A stretch of 49,556 nucleotides of DNA from Bacteroidales bacterium (GTDB taxonomy: Bacteria > Bacteroidota > Bacteroidia > Bacteroidales > TTA-H9), in the NCBI GenBank assembly GCA_030656615.1, contig JAUSOY010000083.1:122966-172521 (forward strand), read 5' to 3'. A program made the position numbers and the translations under genes. Of this stretch, positions 7,163 through 11,537 are shown one piece after another (position 1 is the stretch's first letter; each line of letters starts with the position of its first letter). The notes below the pieces were generated by a model. The model made no database searches. It saw only the letters and a list, made by a program, of their open reading frames with translations, and had not been told where the DNA came from.

Positions 7163-8434
7163 CTATTCTACGCTTTTCGCTTTCAATCGCAACTGCGCAA
7201 TAAACGAAATAAAATCCGCTGAGGTCGGAATAAAATCCGTTACCAGCGTATTTGTAACCCGACAAAAACGACTCATTAAATAAATCAGACTAGCAAGGTA
7301 AGATACGGATGTACACGAGGCGGCGGCTGGTAATCCAAATTTGGGTATAAAATAAATACCTGTTATAGCGATAAAAACTACCCCTATGGCCGAACCTACA
7401 GTATTATAAAAAGGCTTGCCACTTCCCGAAAAGTAATGACTAAAAACCATGCCCGTGGCAATAGCGAGGATTCCAGGGGATAAAAGTATCAGTGATAAAC
7501 GAACCCCTGTAAAACTCGCTCCAAAAACCCAGATTAGCGAACTTTCAGGAATTAGAAGTAATAGTCCAATTCCCAAAATGGTAAATAAAAGGCTGGCTTT
7601 GAAAAAGATAATTGTTATGCGTCTGTTTATCTCCATATCGGTTTGATTTGAGATGCTGGAATATTGGATTAGGGCAATACTTTTGCCAATGAGCCAAAGC
7701 CCTTCTGAGAGTTTTACCCCAACATCAAAACGACCCAAACTGGCCATTCCCCAACTGGCCTTCAGTAGATAATAACTAAGCCGATAGTTTAATGTCTGAA
7801 ACAAGCTTGCCAATTGGATGGAGCCTCCAAATTTCACTAAGTCGCGCAAACAGGATTTTAATTCAATGAATTTACCGAACGATAAATATTGAAGAGTGGT
7901 AAAAATACTGCTTAAAAACCCCAGTCCATATGAAATGTATAATGTATTTACAAAGGCATTTACGGTGGAGTTTTTTAAAATGAAAAAGCTGATGAACAGA
8001 CTGATGGGTAAACTAATCGATTGAATTAAAGTGCTGATATTAAATAAAGTAATGCGCTCGTGTCCTAAAAGAAACATTTGCTGGGTAGAGGTGGTAATTA
8101 ACAAAAGGCTTAAAAGAGCAGTATGTATAATGAATGCTTCTGGCAGCATTCCTAGTAGACTTAAAATCAGTGTACCAATGGATGTTGTTAGAAATCCCCA
8201 AATCAATGAAATGCTGTAAAGAGTGAAGTTATCTCTTTTAGAAGCCAGATAAACGAGGCTACTTCCACCAAAAAAGCCACTTAGGCCATGTAAAATGGCG
8301 ATGCCAATAATTAATAAACCAATTTCGCCAACACCATCAGCACCAAGTTGTCTAGCGTTCAGGATTAATACTGCAAAACCCGCAATAGCGGATAATAACC
8401 TTGTAAAGGCTGTACCTAGTATCTTTTTTAACAT
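7163..8434 (-). CDS. Wzx-like polysaccharide flippase (MOP superfamily)
   Basis: Predicted to flip lipid-linked oligosaccharides across the inner membrane. The 423-aa protein is nearly all hydrophobic helices (about 12), starting MLKKILGTAFTRLLSAIAGF, the usual N-terminus of Wzx/O-antigen translocases, followed by LNARQLGADGVGEIGL. The open frame begins with a TTG one codon upstream; the adjacent ATG (8432-8434) is chosen. It is first in a two-gene unit with ccmF. A TACATTTG -7-like box lies 15 bp upstream on the minus strand. Substrate is unknown. The rfbC and glycosyltransferase genes a few kb away suggest a dispersed surface-polysaccharide pathway. Confidence 0.85.
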   Translation of the reverse strand: MLKKILGTAFTRLLSAIAGFAVLILNARQLGADGVGEIGLLIIGIAILHGLSGFFGGSSLVYLASKRDNFTLYSISLIWGFLTTSIGTLILSLLGMLPEAFIIHTALLSLLLITTSTQQMFLLGHERITLFNISTLIQSISLPISLFISFFILKNSTVNAFVNTLYISYGLGFLSSIFTTLQYLSFGKFIELKSCLRDLVKFGGSIQLASLFQTLNYRLSYYLLKASWGMASLGRFDVGVKLSEGLWLIGKSIALIQYSSISNQTDMEINRRITIIFFKASLLFTILGIGLLLLIPESSLIWVFGASFTGVRLSLILLSPGILAIATGMVFSHYFSGSGKPFYNTVGSAIGVVFIAITGIYFIPKFGLPAAASCTSVSYLASLIYLMSRFCRVTNTLVTDFIPTSADFISFIAQLRLKAKSVE

Positions 8435-8448
8435 CAAAGTCGTTTATG

Positions 8449-8456
8449 CAAATGTA
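8449..8456 (-). promoter_or_regulatory. Candidate -7 box for the flippase-ccmF unit
   Basis: The minus strand reads TACATTTG, a full match to the Bacteroidetes -7 consensus TAnnTTTG. It ends 15 nt before the flippase ATG. No clear TTG -33 element is seen at the expected distance. Confidence 0.4.
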
Positions 8457-8496
8457 TCAATTATTCAGGATTTGGCGCATTTTGTTCAGAATAGGA

Positions 8497-8527
8497 TTGG
8501 TCGTCTAGTATTTGGAAATTATATTTG
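8497..8527 (+). promoter_or_regulatory. Bacteroidetes-type promoter for the lipoprotein gene
   Basis: TTG (8497-8499), a 20-nt gap, then TATATTTG (8520-8527), matching TTG-N(17-23)-TAnnTTTG. The inferred leader is about 84 nt before the GTG start at 8618. Confidence 0.55.
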
Positions 8528-8617
8528 TTATATATATCATAAAACAAAGAAAAACAGACAAATACGATTTTGGCCTTAAAGTTGTTATATTGATAAAAGC
8601 ACATAAATTACCGAATT

Positions 8618-9856
8618 GTGAAAAAATTATTTATACTACCAGTACTCTTTGCTTTCATCCTCGTTTCTTGCGATAGATATGATAGCAACGATTTGAAAAC
8701 CACAAGTTTTTCAATGAATATCAATTCGGATGAATTAACACAAAGACTTACGTATCCGAATGTTCCCATTCATCTTACGTCACAAAAATCAACTCAAACT
8801 TCAAGTTTCGTTCTGGTAGGCGAAGCTGATTCACCCATGCTTAATGGTGAAAAGTTGAGTGCTTCCAGTGTAATTTTTGGTGCTAACAATCGGGTTTATG
8901 TTACTTATCACCATCGTGGCGAGCCTTTTGGCGGAGCTATCGTGGCTTTTAATGTGGTTAATCCATCGCAACCTGTGATTACATCACAAATTATCTTTAA
9001 TGATATAGACATTAATATTGTATCGTTTAAAAACCAAAACGATAATAAAATATATCTCGGTGGTGCTTCTGCTACGAATGGTGCTGTTGTTATTCCAGTG
9101 AATCTTAATGGTGGCACAGGAGATCTTAATACCAATCAGAACCTTCAGATTGCTCCGGTTGGTGGTTCTCCTTCCGTTAATGGAATAGTACATGTTGGTA
9201 ATCGTTTAATCGTAAGTGCTGGTTATACTTCTGGTGGATTATGGTCAATCAATCAGGGAAGTATGCAAATTATGGCCCAGACCTATTTTGATGGCTCTAA
9301 ATCAGTAGCCACCAATGGACTGAGTGGAAGCTCAAATCGTTTTATGTCATTAAAAGGTGGTAGTATGGACAATGCTATCCTGTACGTATACAAGGGCGGA
9401 AACAATCCAAATTTTAATACAGGTTGGCAGTTCAATCTCGGAGTTCCTGCTATTCATCAGAATGTGGAACCCAACTACGAACAGTGGGGCAAGATGTATA
9501 TGTTTATTAAACCCAATACAACAACTTGTTACGTTCCTTTGGGAATGAATGGAATGAAGGCGATTAATTTTTCTCAGGGCAATGGACAACTTGTATATCA
9601 ATCGCCGGCCGGCATGCTTACTACTGGTAACTGCAACGCTGTAGGTGCTGATAATGATTATGTATACATGGCCAATGGTTCAGATGGAGTATGTTTTGCA
9701 ACAGTTCCCACTACTGGCACAACCTTAAATATATTCGGTGTTTGGGATAATACCCAATACCCTGGTTCTGTAAATTTTATTGCAAGTAATAATACACACA
9801 TTTTTGTCGCCAAGGGGAAGGAGGGCGGTTTAAAAATTCTTCTAAAAGTGAATTAA
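8618..9856 (+). CDS. Lipoprotein, predicted beta-propeller-like fold, function unknown
   Basis: Not recognised as a member of a named family. The 412-aa product has a type II signal peptide with a lipobox ending LVSC (Cys18), so it should be lipidated. Asp at +2 and the acidic/Asn run after Cys leave the final membrane uncertain. The rest is beta-rich, with repeated blade-like strands such as VIFGANNRVYVTYH, NGIVHVGNRLIVSAG, NAVGADNDYVYMANG and NFIASNNTHIFVAKG, spaced as in WD40/LVIVD-type propellers. It ends close to the last strand (GGLKILLKVN). Start is GTG (8618-8620), the only sensible start giving the signal peptide. It is a single-gene unit with its own promoter and a strong terminator. 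A surface binding or sensing role is possible, but no catalytic residues can be assigned. Confidence 0.75.
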   Translation: MKKLFILPVLFAFILVSCDRYDSNDLKTTSFSMNINSDELTQRLTYPNVPIHLTSQKSTQTSSFVLVGEADSPMLNGEKLSASSVIFGANNRVYVTYHHRGEPFGGAIVAFNVVNPSQPVITSQIIFNDIDINIVSFKNQNDNKIYLGGASATNGAVVIPVNLNGGTGDLNTNQNLQIAPVGGSPSVNGIVHVGNRLIVSAGYTSGGLWSINQGSMQIMAQTYFDGSKSVATNGLSGSSNRFMSLKGGSMDNAILYVYKGGNNPNFNTGWQFNLGVPAIHQNVEPNYEQWGKMYMFIKPNTTTCYVPLGMNGMKAINFSQGNGQLVYQSPAGMLTTGNCNAVGADNDYVYMANGSDGVCFATVPTTGTTLNIFGVWDNTQYPGSVNFIASNNTHIFVAKGKEGGLKILLKVN

Positions 9857-9883
9857 GTGAGATTCAATTTAACTGTTAAGCAA

Positions 9884-9918
9884 TAAAAGAGGCCGGTTTT
9901 CCGGCCTCTTTTATTTTT
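9884..9918. terminator. Strong, probably bidirectional intrinsic terminator
   Basis: Perfect 13-bp stem TAAAAGAGGCCGG (9884-9896) / CCGGCCTCTTTTA (9901-9913), TTTT loop, followed by TTTTTAT on the plus strand. It lies between the convergent lipoprotein gene and the formyltransferase-like gene, so it can serve both. Confidence 0.9.
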
Positions 9919-9950: not shown

Positions 9951-11537
9951 TTATCGCCCATGTTTCTTACAGTCAAAGGAAACCACATCCTCAAAATGAT
10001 GCCAGGTGTGTATTCCGTCTTTATATTCGTTGTGTAAGTCAGCTCCAATATAATCCTCTGTTTCTTCTTCAAACGAATGTACACTCAATTTATTGACTCG
10101 GTTTATACTGATGCGGTGTCCGGAATATTTGCTGCAATCCTGCGTGGGGCGAAATAAATTCCCATTCATAGAAAACAAGGCACCTGCTGGACGCGACGAA
10201 CGAACATCCGTCTTTACAGGATTTAATAAATGTGGTTGGTATGGGCCCTCAGGAGTATCGGAATACCATATGTGTAAAACAGACGTTGAATGTTGCTTCT
10301 CAGTAAAAAATAACCACCATTTACCGTCGTGATATTGTATAACCGGATCTACGGCAGCAATTCCCTCCAGAATTGTACAATGGAAATCAAAACACTCCAT
10401 TTCAGGATTAAAACGATATAACCGGATAATGTTTTCGGTGCTGCTTTCCGGACAGCAATATACGCTTCCCTGATGCTTAAACGTAAATGGGAAAGCCAGA
10501 TGCCCCTTTTCTTCAATCGCAACTGTTGCATCCCCAATCATATCAAGGTTCTGATCGAATTTCTGCATCATAATTTTTCCCTTAGGGTGGTGGTAATCAT
10601 ATTGCTCAAAGAGAACATAATATTGATCTAAAATCTTAAAAACAAATGCATCAGCCTTGTATTCTGAAGTTCCTCCTTCCGGCAACCAATTGATTTCTTT
10701 TCTGTTAATAAACCGGACTCCTGAAATCCACATCTCTCTCCGGAAAAGGCAACGGTAATGATAATCAATACGGTTGTACAAAAGTAATAATATGAAGTAC
10801 AGCAATTGTCGATTATTGGGGATCCTTTTAAGATTGCCTTTTTTGTAAGGCATTTGTTGGCTAATTTCCTGATCATTCGTGATTTTTCGGCAAACCTGAG
10901 CAGGCCATAGGGCGCTTTGGAAATAAGCCTCGTCCAGATTGTTTTTCCACGAATGGTGTATTACAGGAAACCAAGCCTGCCAAAGAATTTCACCTTGATC
11001 GACTGAATTATTGAGGCGCTGAAGTACTGCTCCGTTCACGATATCGCCATGATATATTTCCCAGAAATTGGATGGAACGCCACGATATACCGAAGGATCA
11101 TCATGATGAAATGACCACACTCCCCATGGGCAGCAATCAAGAATTCTTCCGCGGATAATACTGAATCCGAACCTCAGCAAGAAATCAGGCTTACACTGTT
11201 GAATTTGAACGATGGTTGTATCCGTAAAATAATCTGCTATCCCTTCACGATAAATTTGAGCATAAATGAGAGGTACATCCTTTAATAGTCCCTTTAAATC
11301 TTTTACTTGTTTAGATTCTGGCTGGAAGAAAATTCGGGTATATATTCTAAAAAACAGTGTGCTGAATGGCAGAAGCGGGAAGCGATGCGTTTTTTCTTCT
11401 TTCTTTATGTCTGGCATGATAAGGACACAAATGCGATGATTTTCGGCCAAAAGCTTCTCTATTGCCATCGCTTGCCATTGCTGAAAATGGTAGGAATTGC
11501 ATAAAATTCCGAATGAAAGTCCGGTTTTTGTATTCAT
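9951..11537 (-). CDS. Formyltransferase-like domain fused to a GINT1/GH43-like beta-propeller domain
   Basis: A 528-aa two-domain protein. Residues about 1-230 resemble the formyltransferase fold of Fmt/ArnA: HHDDPSVYRGVPSNFWEIYH followed by the VDQGEI segment. His144 and Asp180 occupy the positions of the catalytic His and Asp of the N-x-H...D triad. The Asn position is Ser142 (WSFHH), so activity may differ. Residues about 290-525 are beta-rich with ADAFVFKILDQYYVLFEQ, GHLAFPFTF and LHIWYSDTPEGPY. These match, from memory, the five-bladed propeller N-terminal domain of the glucosamine inositolphosphorylceramide transferase family, distantly related to GH43. The ATG overlaps the stop of the upstream GT4 gene (ATGA), so both are made together, pointing to a role in modifying a glycan or a sugar nucleotide. 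Substrate is unknown. The domain names are inference from motifs. Confidence 0.7.
   Translation of the reverse strand: MNTKTGLSFGILCNSYHFQQWQAMAIEKLLAENHRICVLIMPDIKKEEKTHRFPLLPFSTLFFRIYTRIFFQPESKQVKDLKGLLKDVPLIYAQIYREGIADYFTDTTIVQIQQCKPDFLLRFGFSIIRGRILDCCPWGVWSFHHDDPSVYRGVPSNFWEIYHGDIVNGAVLQRLNNSVDQGEILWQAWFPVIHHSWKNNLDEAYFQSALWPAQVCRKITNDQEISQQMPYKKGNLKRIPNNRQLLYFILLLLYNRIDYHYRCLFRREMWISGVRFINRKEINWLPEGGTSEYKADAFVFKILDQYYVLFEQYDYHHPKGKIMMQKFDQNLDMIGDATVAIEEKGHLAFPFTFKHQGSVYCCPESSTENIIRLYRFNPEMECFDFHCTILEGIAAVDPVIQYHDGKWWLFFTEKQHSTSVLHIWYSDTPEGPYQPHLLNPVKTDVRSSRPAGALFSMNGNLFRPTQDCSKYSGHRISINRVNKLSVHSFEEETEDYIGADLHNEYKDGIHTWHHFEDVVSFDCKKHGR

Follow-up and report, generated by a model that had tools for sequence, protein, structure and literature searches.

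What does a protein do that joins a formyltransferase-like domain, with a serine in place of the catalytic asparagine, to a β-propeller of the GINT1/GH43 kind? This question is raised by a gene in a 49,556-nucleotide stretch of contig JAUSOY010000083.1 from a Bacteroidales bacterium (assembly GCA_030656615.1), called the window in what follows. An Asn-His-Asp triad is the accepted signature of folate-dependent formyl transfer, and characterised formyltransferases use the catalytic Asn for polarising the formyl group; a clade found in bacteria and archaea, which one branch separates from the Asn-type enzymes and which keeps Ser at this position, offers a direct test of the purpose of the Asn. 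The fusion is also a handle on two orphans, the bacterial GINT1-type propeller and a gene module (GT4, fusion, flippase) that recurs in uncultured Bacteroidales. Since the fusion gene has a sugar transferase and an exporter of glycans among its neighbours, its product probably decorates a cell-surface sugar by a variant of known formyltransferase chemistry.

The original prediction described a single protein made of a formyltransferase-like half and a GINT1/GH43-like propeller half, and named the lack of a formyltransferase fold as the result on which it should be given up. The fusion is borne out (Table 1), and the fold is predicted with high confidence by the combined use of AlphaFold2, Foldseek and VIA. 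The AlphaFold2 model of the whole protein (78 sequences in the input) has a pLDDT of 94.7 and a pTM of 0.92, and that of residues 1–267 alone a pLDDT of 93.8 and a pTM of 0.90; a chance open reading frame is ruled out by this confident model together with the relatives found across genomes. Screening the whole-protein model with Foldseek returned the formyltransferase domain of ArnA (5j63) as the top match (E 1.7e-10), and GH117 and GH43 propellers were among the matches of the propeller half. In the VIA comparisons, the model of residues 1–267 superposes on Met-tRNA formyltransferase (3r8x; Z 18.6, rmsd 4.9, 221 aligned), ArnA (1z7e; Z 17.3, rmsd 4.9, 212 aligned), HypX (Z 15.9) and WbkC (5vyu; Z 15.6, rmsd 3.8, 206 aligned), so that the predicted match to the folate enzymes spans the whole domain. 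The propeller half superposes equally well on GH159 (7zei; Z 20.9, rmsd 2.8 over 234) and on the GH130 phosphorylase 5b0p (Z 20.9, rmsd 3.0 over 238), and several GH43 chains follow at Z 18–19, as expected of a GH43-type propeller fold.

Table 1. Features of the fusion locus (positions are those of the window)
Feature	Position	Strand	Basis
Fusion gene, 528 aa: formyltransferase-like domain and GINT1/GH43-like propeller	9951..11537	-	ORF with ATG start, Pfam, AlphaFold2 model
Formyltransferase-like domain, about residues 1–262	10752..11537	-	Isolated-domain model, VIA, Foldseek
Active-site strand and loop, residues 139–153 (GVWSFHHDDPSVYRG); Ser142 codon 11112–11114, His144 codon 11106–11108	11079..11123	-	ArnA alignment, alignment A2
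Asp180 codon, opposite ArnA residue 140	10998..11000	-	ArnA alignment, alignment A2
GINT1_N/GH43-like propeller, residues 278–528	9954..10706	-	PF24793, VIA
GT4-family glycosyltransferase gene, 391 aa	11534..12709	-	Pfam Glyco_trans_1_4, E 2.7e-27; stop overlaps the fusion start (ATGA)
Flippase (Wzx-like) gene, 424 aa	7163..8437	-	35% identity, E 7.3e-59, to the flippase of locus L069
Lipoprotein-like gene between fusion and flippase	8618..9856	+	ORF, lipoprotein-like signal by eye; no Pfam match
Terminator-like 15-pair hairpin between two convergent genes	9882..9915	.	Pattern scan, reported on the + strand

Family signatures recognise the two halves to a different degree. In Pfam, residues 288–494 match GINT1_N (PF24793) at an E-value of 4.2e-34 with a bit score of 118.4, far over the cut-off of 27, and Glyco_hydro_43 (PF04616) scores 27.7, below its cut-off of 32.2. 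Formyl_trans_N (PF00551) covers residues 108–202 with a score of 23.4 (25.6 when the window protein was searched at genome level) against a cut-off of 26.1 (E 5.8e-5); a standalone sister protein, L140, scores 52.6 with the same model. The matches of the window protein in NCBIfam are solely to formyltransferase models, all far under the cut-off, the best being PRK06988 (E 2.8e-7). A profile built from 20 fused and standalone members matched 70 PDB sequences at E-values up to 0.01, ArnA being the best (7.2e-17), and among the best 60 of these 70 nearly all are named as formyltransferases or formyl-folate enzymes, two being called 'uncharacterized protein'.

The sequence alignment with ArnA places Ser142, His144 and Asp180 opposite residues 102, 104 and 140, which we take to be the catalytic residues of that enzyme. 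The window protein therefore has the His and the Asp of the sugar N-formyltransferases and Ser in the position of their Asn, just as had been read from the sequence at the outset. The SLLP folate motif is gone as well, a different conserved stretch standing in its place. The equivalent triad in glycinamide ribonucleotide transformylase is Asn106/His108/Asp144 (PMC4786211, PMC4887040), and PMC4786211 puts on record formyltransferases of secondary metabolism in which the triad is kept and SLLP is missing. The constancy of the site was assessed in an alignment (A2) of the window protein with the relatives from 77 of 80 scanned loci, L040, L048 and L051 having been omitted as presumed near-copies (the two members differ in each of the three pairs; L040 agrees with L039 to 99% in the core). 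Nine residues, Ser142, His144, His145, Asp147, Arg152, Gly153, Gln173, Asp180 and Gly182, are identical in all 78 rows, and Gly139, Ser142, His144, Arg152, Gly153, Gln173, Asp180 and Gly182 (window numbers) are invariant in the alignment of the 20 fused and standalone members. Mean pairwise identity within A2 amounts to 43% in the formyltransferase half and 41% in the propeller, so that both halves of the close clade are equally constrained, which argues against the formyltransferase half being a vestige there; the idea of its mere decay in this clade finds no support, the active-site positions being unvarying across the 78 rows.

The original prediction was also to stand or fall with the conservation of the replacement, and a Ser peculiar to this one sequence is ruled out, as it is common to the whole sampled clade. 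Among the 103 distinct propeller fusions in which a formyltransferase half can be recognised, 102 carry Ser at position 142, the sole exception being L151, whose domain is decayed. These 103 are what remains of 107 scripted cases after removal of L019 (an ordinary Asn-type protein that had been mislabelled) and of three repeats of the same gene; L132 and L135, in which no formyltransferase motif is recognisable, are omitted, as are L153 and L154. The genome scan, which found 433 stretches encoding a relative and from which 80 loci were kept (L021–L100), is biased for Ser because one of its two patterns demands it; among the 23 distinct fusions from outside this Ser-requiring scan, 22 have Ser. 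So do all 25 rows spanning both halves in a search of the order (own protein included, one row incomplete), the profile of which was itself made from Ser-type sequences. On the Ser side of the tree described below, 19 of 20 standalone relatives carry Ser (L017, the same gene as L157, and L102, a truncated fusion, are left uncounted among the 19 Ser-type loci), and in L189 (2768–3592) Gly replaces it within G-Y-H-H-G-D. For ordinary members of the family, PF00551 was searched in 10 related genomes and gave 26 matches: the 19 PurN- or Fmt-like motifs that were read all have Asn, and the remaining seven comprise three Ser-type fusions, one motif read as Ile and three left unread by the script.

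In a maximum-likelihood tree of 51 rows, calculated after removal of the motif columns, one branch (support 100/98, recovered in 100% of 200 bootstrap trees) divides 38 Ser rows and L189 from 11 Asn rows and L194, which has Gly at the Ser/Asn position; the data by themselves do not fix the root. All fusions fall together (99/95), the nearest group to them being standalone haloarchaeal proteins (98/94 for both jointly), and details around L146 and L150 are unsure owing to long branches. Two haloarchaeal fusions, from Halorussus, are found inside Bacteroidota (100/98 with L013), a nesting that suggests transfer between Bacteroidota and haloarchaea. Judged from these sequences, the Ser-type clade has members in both Bacteroidota and haloarchaea and is marked by Ser in place of Asn.

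The gene neighbourhood gives insight into the pathway in which the protein may act. The fusion gene is the central one of three that recur together as a module, GT4-fusion-flippase. According to mechanical ORF calls, a homologous GT4 is present in 50 of the 74 fusion loci with at least 1.2 kb of upstream sequence (in 45 of them no more than 60 bases away, with a median gap of 2), and a flippase-type gene in 64 of the 75 loci for which 1.3 kb or more of downstream sequence exists (in 61 of them no more than 70 bases away, with a median gap of -3); 36 of 69 loci have both. The expected association with glycosyltransferases is thereby confirmed, the flippase being an addition to it. In the window itself the fusion and the flippase are parted by the opposite-strand lipoprotein-like gene and the terminator-like hairpin, seven such terminator-like sites being found in the region against a mean of 5.2 in shuffles. 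The window flippase (7163–8437) has no Pfam match of its own, and the reference flippase of L069 passes PF01943 narrowly (29.2 vs. 28.2). Where GT4 is lacking (24 loci), an asparagine-synthase-like gene lies upstream in 13 (12 of them on the opposite strand) and a GT2 gene in five, these assignments coming from scans of three of the 13 and of one GT2; an asparagine-synthase-like gene also adjoins the standalone relative L144 (by eye) and lies two genes from L200. Relatives of three other neighbours recur among the 80 loci, namely AAA_28 (nadR-like) in 29, the NMN transporter gene pnuC in 21 and a gyrB/parE-like gene in 39 (representatives scanned), suggesting that the module often sits at a similar chromosomal place. 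Groups of propeller, glycosyltransferase and flippase genes in sphingomonads were considered as orthologues of the module and rejected, since they show general GT4 similarity only and no flippase match.

Taken together, the best reading of the protein is that of a sugar N-formyltransferase with a glycan-binding propeller, i.e., a two-domain surface-glycan enzyme in which a Ser-type amine formyltransferase, or a close variant of one, works with a sugar-holding propeller on a product that is then exported. Judging from its family, the GT4 would add a sugar to a carrier-linked acceptor; the propeller, given its fold and conserved positions, may hold the added sugar or the growing glycan; the Ser-type domain would then formylate an amine from a folate donor, with His144 and Asp180 as the base pair and Ser142, which stands where Asn normally polarises the formyl group, taking over the hydrogen-bonding part of the latter; finally, as adjacency suggests, the flippase of the module could export the lipid-linked product. 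As most doubt attaches to the holding by the propeller and to the formylation, we give this explanation about an even chance. It draws on the likeness to the sugar N-formyltransferases (the N-terminal domain of ArnA, WbkC, FdtF and QdtF), with which the fusion has in common the fold, a collinear active-site region, the His and the Asp as well as a surface-glycan gene context; it differs from them by Ser for Asn, the absence of SLLP, the invariant Gln173 and the attached propeller; ArnA and QdtF have partner domains of another kind. The replaced Asn, the lost SLLP and the Formyl_trans_N score below the cut-off count against it, and so do distant propeller proteins with a damaged, unrecognisable or absent formyltransferase half.

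These distant proteins bear on the strongest competing explanation, according to which the propeller is the working half, active in glycosyl transfer, phosphorolysis or glycan binding, and the formyltransferase-like half a non-catalytic sugar-nucleotide or docking domain. Sixteen diverse propellers were compared, some from fusions, damaged ones included, and others from proteins that lack a formyltransferase half, and they have 16 invariant positions in common (in window numbering A295, D296, E311, H346, P350, P363, E364, D397, H436, P440, R449, G452, R463, E491, H510 and D522), two of which vary slightly in the 78-row set, with H436 kept in 76 rows and R463 in 77. This set looks like a functional pocket, and it persists even where the formyltransferase half is damaged or absent. 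The half appears as if lost stepwise in some lineages, His being changed to Gln in L146 (1783–3435), the Asp missing in L150 (1940–3514) and the whole motif gone from the domain of L151 (1908–3539); in Rhizobium tropici (L132, 11914–13425) and Streptomyces anulatus (L135, 9446–10837), the propeller is preceded by an N-terminal part of about 200 residues in which neither Pfam nor inspection of the motif by eye finds a formyltransferase. Propeller-only proteins are common, which makes the formyltransferase half dispensable for whatever the propeller does, and in three sphingomonads they lie next to glycosyltransferase and flippase-type genes, non-orthologous to those of the window. The nearest folds, moreover, include phosphorylases and a mannoside synthase. 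Against these points stand the active site of the formyltransferase, unvarying in 78 rows in a half that is no less conserved than the propeller, and the standalone Ser-type genes: at 18 of 19 such loci no propeller was found in the examined stretches of about 4 to 17 kb, which indicates that the domain also functions by itself. We therefore regard a working propeller with an idle partner as possible, if rather unlikely.

With plant GINT1 (glucosamine inositolphosphorylceramide transferase), the window protein shares the N-terminal PF24793 propeller, far above the cut-off; in the plant protein a GT64 domain lies behind the propeller, whereas the window protein has no GT64 match in Pfam at E-values up to 1 and carries the formyltransferase-like domain in front. 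The propeller resembles the GH43, GH62, GH117, GH130 and GH159 enzymes in its fold (VIA Z up to 20.9) and is set apart from them by the PF04616 score below the cut-off and by an invariant polar set that is its family's own. A search of the open-licence literature found no paper on a formyltransferase together with GINT1. The propeller-only protein of Sphingomonas paeninsulae (L133, 9908–10846; 312 residues) is annotated as 'formyl transferase', perhaps a label carried over from a fusion, and its gene is flanked by glycosyltransferase and flippase genes.

Independent evidence that the two halves work together, as in the preferred reading of a formyltransferase with a sugar-holding propeller, comes from Haladaptatus caseinilyticus (L136), where they are separate adjacent genes on one strand in the order opposite to that of the fusion: a GT4 gene is followed by a 361-residue propeller ORF (7737–8822) and, 16 bases on, by a Ser-type formyltransferase (8839–9696). 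This propeller ORF is intact and is missing from the gene table of the plasmid.

The standalone genes have also to be weighed for a second alternative, that the Ser-type domain catalyses a different reaction, the transfer or removal of a non-formyl acyl group through Ser-His-Asp. Residues of this kind recall acyl-enzyme triads, and the position of Asn and Ser on opposite sides of a single branch, the other conserved stretch that replaces SLLP and the invariant Gln173 speak for this proposal. A 4'-phosphopantetheinyl transferase gene (Pfam ACPS) adjoins four standalone Ser-type genes, L140, L142, L143 and L157; all four genomes belong to the window's own bacterial family, and this confinement counts against the proposal. 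With the predicted fold match to folate enzymes covering the entire domain, we consider a changed reaction improbable. Equally doubtful is a more far-reaching proposal, in which the Ser-type clade would be a mechanistic branch of the formyltransferase fold, Ser142-His144-Asp180 serving either as a triad of the acyl-enzyme type or as an oxyanion site built anew, while the fusions would act on an already assembled lipid-linked glycan gripped by the propeller and not on a nucleotide sugar.

A possible source of the amine to be formylated is indicated at some loci. A polysaccharide-deacetylase gene directly adjoins five of the 19 standalone Ser-type genes (L144, L186, L187, L188 and L201, the near-copies L186 and L187 included) and none was found immediately beside the other 14, which counts against the preferred reading; in Natronorubrum bangense the two genes overlap at stop and start. 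The free amine left by deacetylation would suit formyl transfer. The Haloarcula halobia formyltransferase L209, which adjoins a deacetylase too, is Asn-type and was left out of this support. Each of the two Halorussus fusions has a DegT-type sugar aminotransferase gene in its cluster, at a distance of about 9 kb in one and 5 kb in the other. Scans of representatives showed neither a deacetylase nor an aminotransferase among the principal clusters of neighbouring genes at the 80 fusion loci. By analogy with arnD beside arnA, NodB-type enzymes that adjoin a formyltransferase can be deformylases. The Arn module (ArnA, ArnC, ArnD, ArnE/F) combines a formyltransferase with a glycosyltransferase and an exporter, as the window module does; the window module differs from it by a GT4 instead of the ArnC family, which is GT2, and by having no deformylase gene beside the fusion. 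Transient formylation as in the Arn pathway, where the formyl group put on an amino sugar for the transfer step would be taken off again by a NodB-type enzyme, is the least probable of the alternatives and very unlikely here. The arnA-arnD layout and the NodB-type genes adjoining standalone Ser-type genes speak for it; against it, the main fusion neighbours include no NodB-type cluster (representatives scanned), and adjacency is silent on the direction of the reaction.

As to how often the fusion occurs, which the original prediction had left to be counted, relatives spanning both halves were found in 15 of the 60 related genomes, a count that includes the window's genome (the copy in G057 breaks off where its contig stops, and that in G004 consists of two aligned pieces in one frame), in 25 of the 247 genomes from its order (own included, G057 again incomplete) and in four of 395 genomes across the phylum (G000, G135, G170 with one stop inside the matched stretch, and G234 in two frame pieces). 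Some match at an E-value of 1e-3 or better was obtained in 221 of these 395 genomes, and among the matches listed most are propeller-only proteins or short matches to the formyltransferase region. In the pair L039/L040, a metagenome-assembled record titled Alphaproteobacteria contains a fusion whose core agrees to 99% with the one in a Bacteroidales record, and is perhaps a mislabelled bin. Plasmid records with a match number 66, and in three of them 80% or more of the query is covered, two being the Halorussus fusions and one the protein of Rhizobium tropici. Finally, as to a phage origin, one phage record holds a partial propeller match, and a PHROG search gave a weak match to a PurN-like family.
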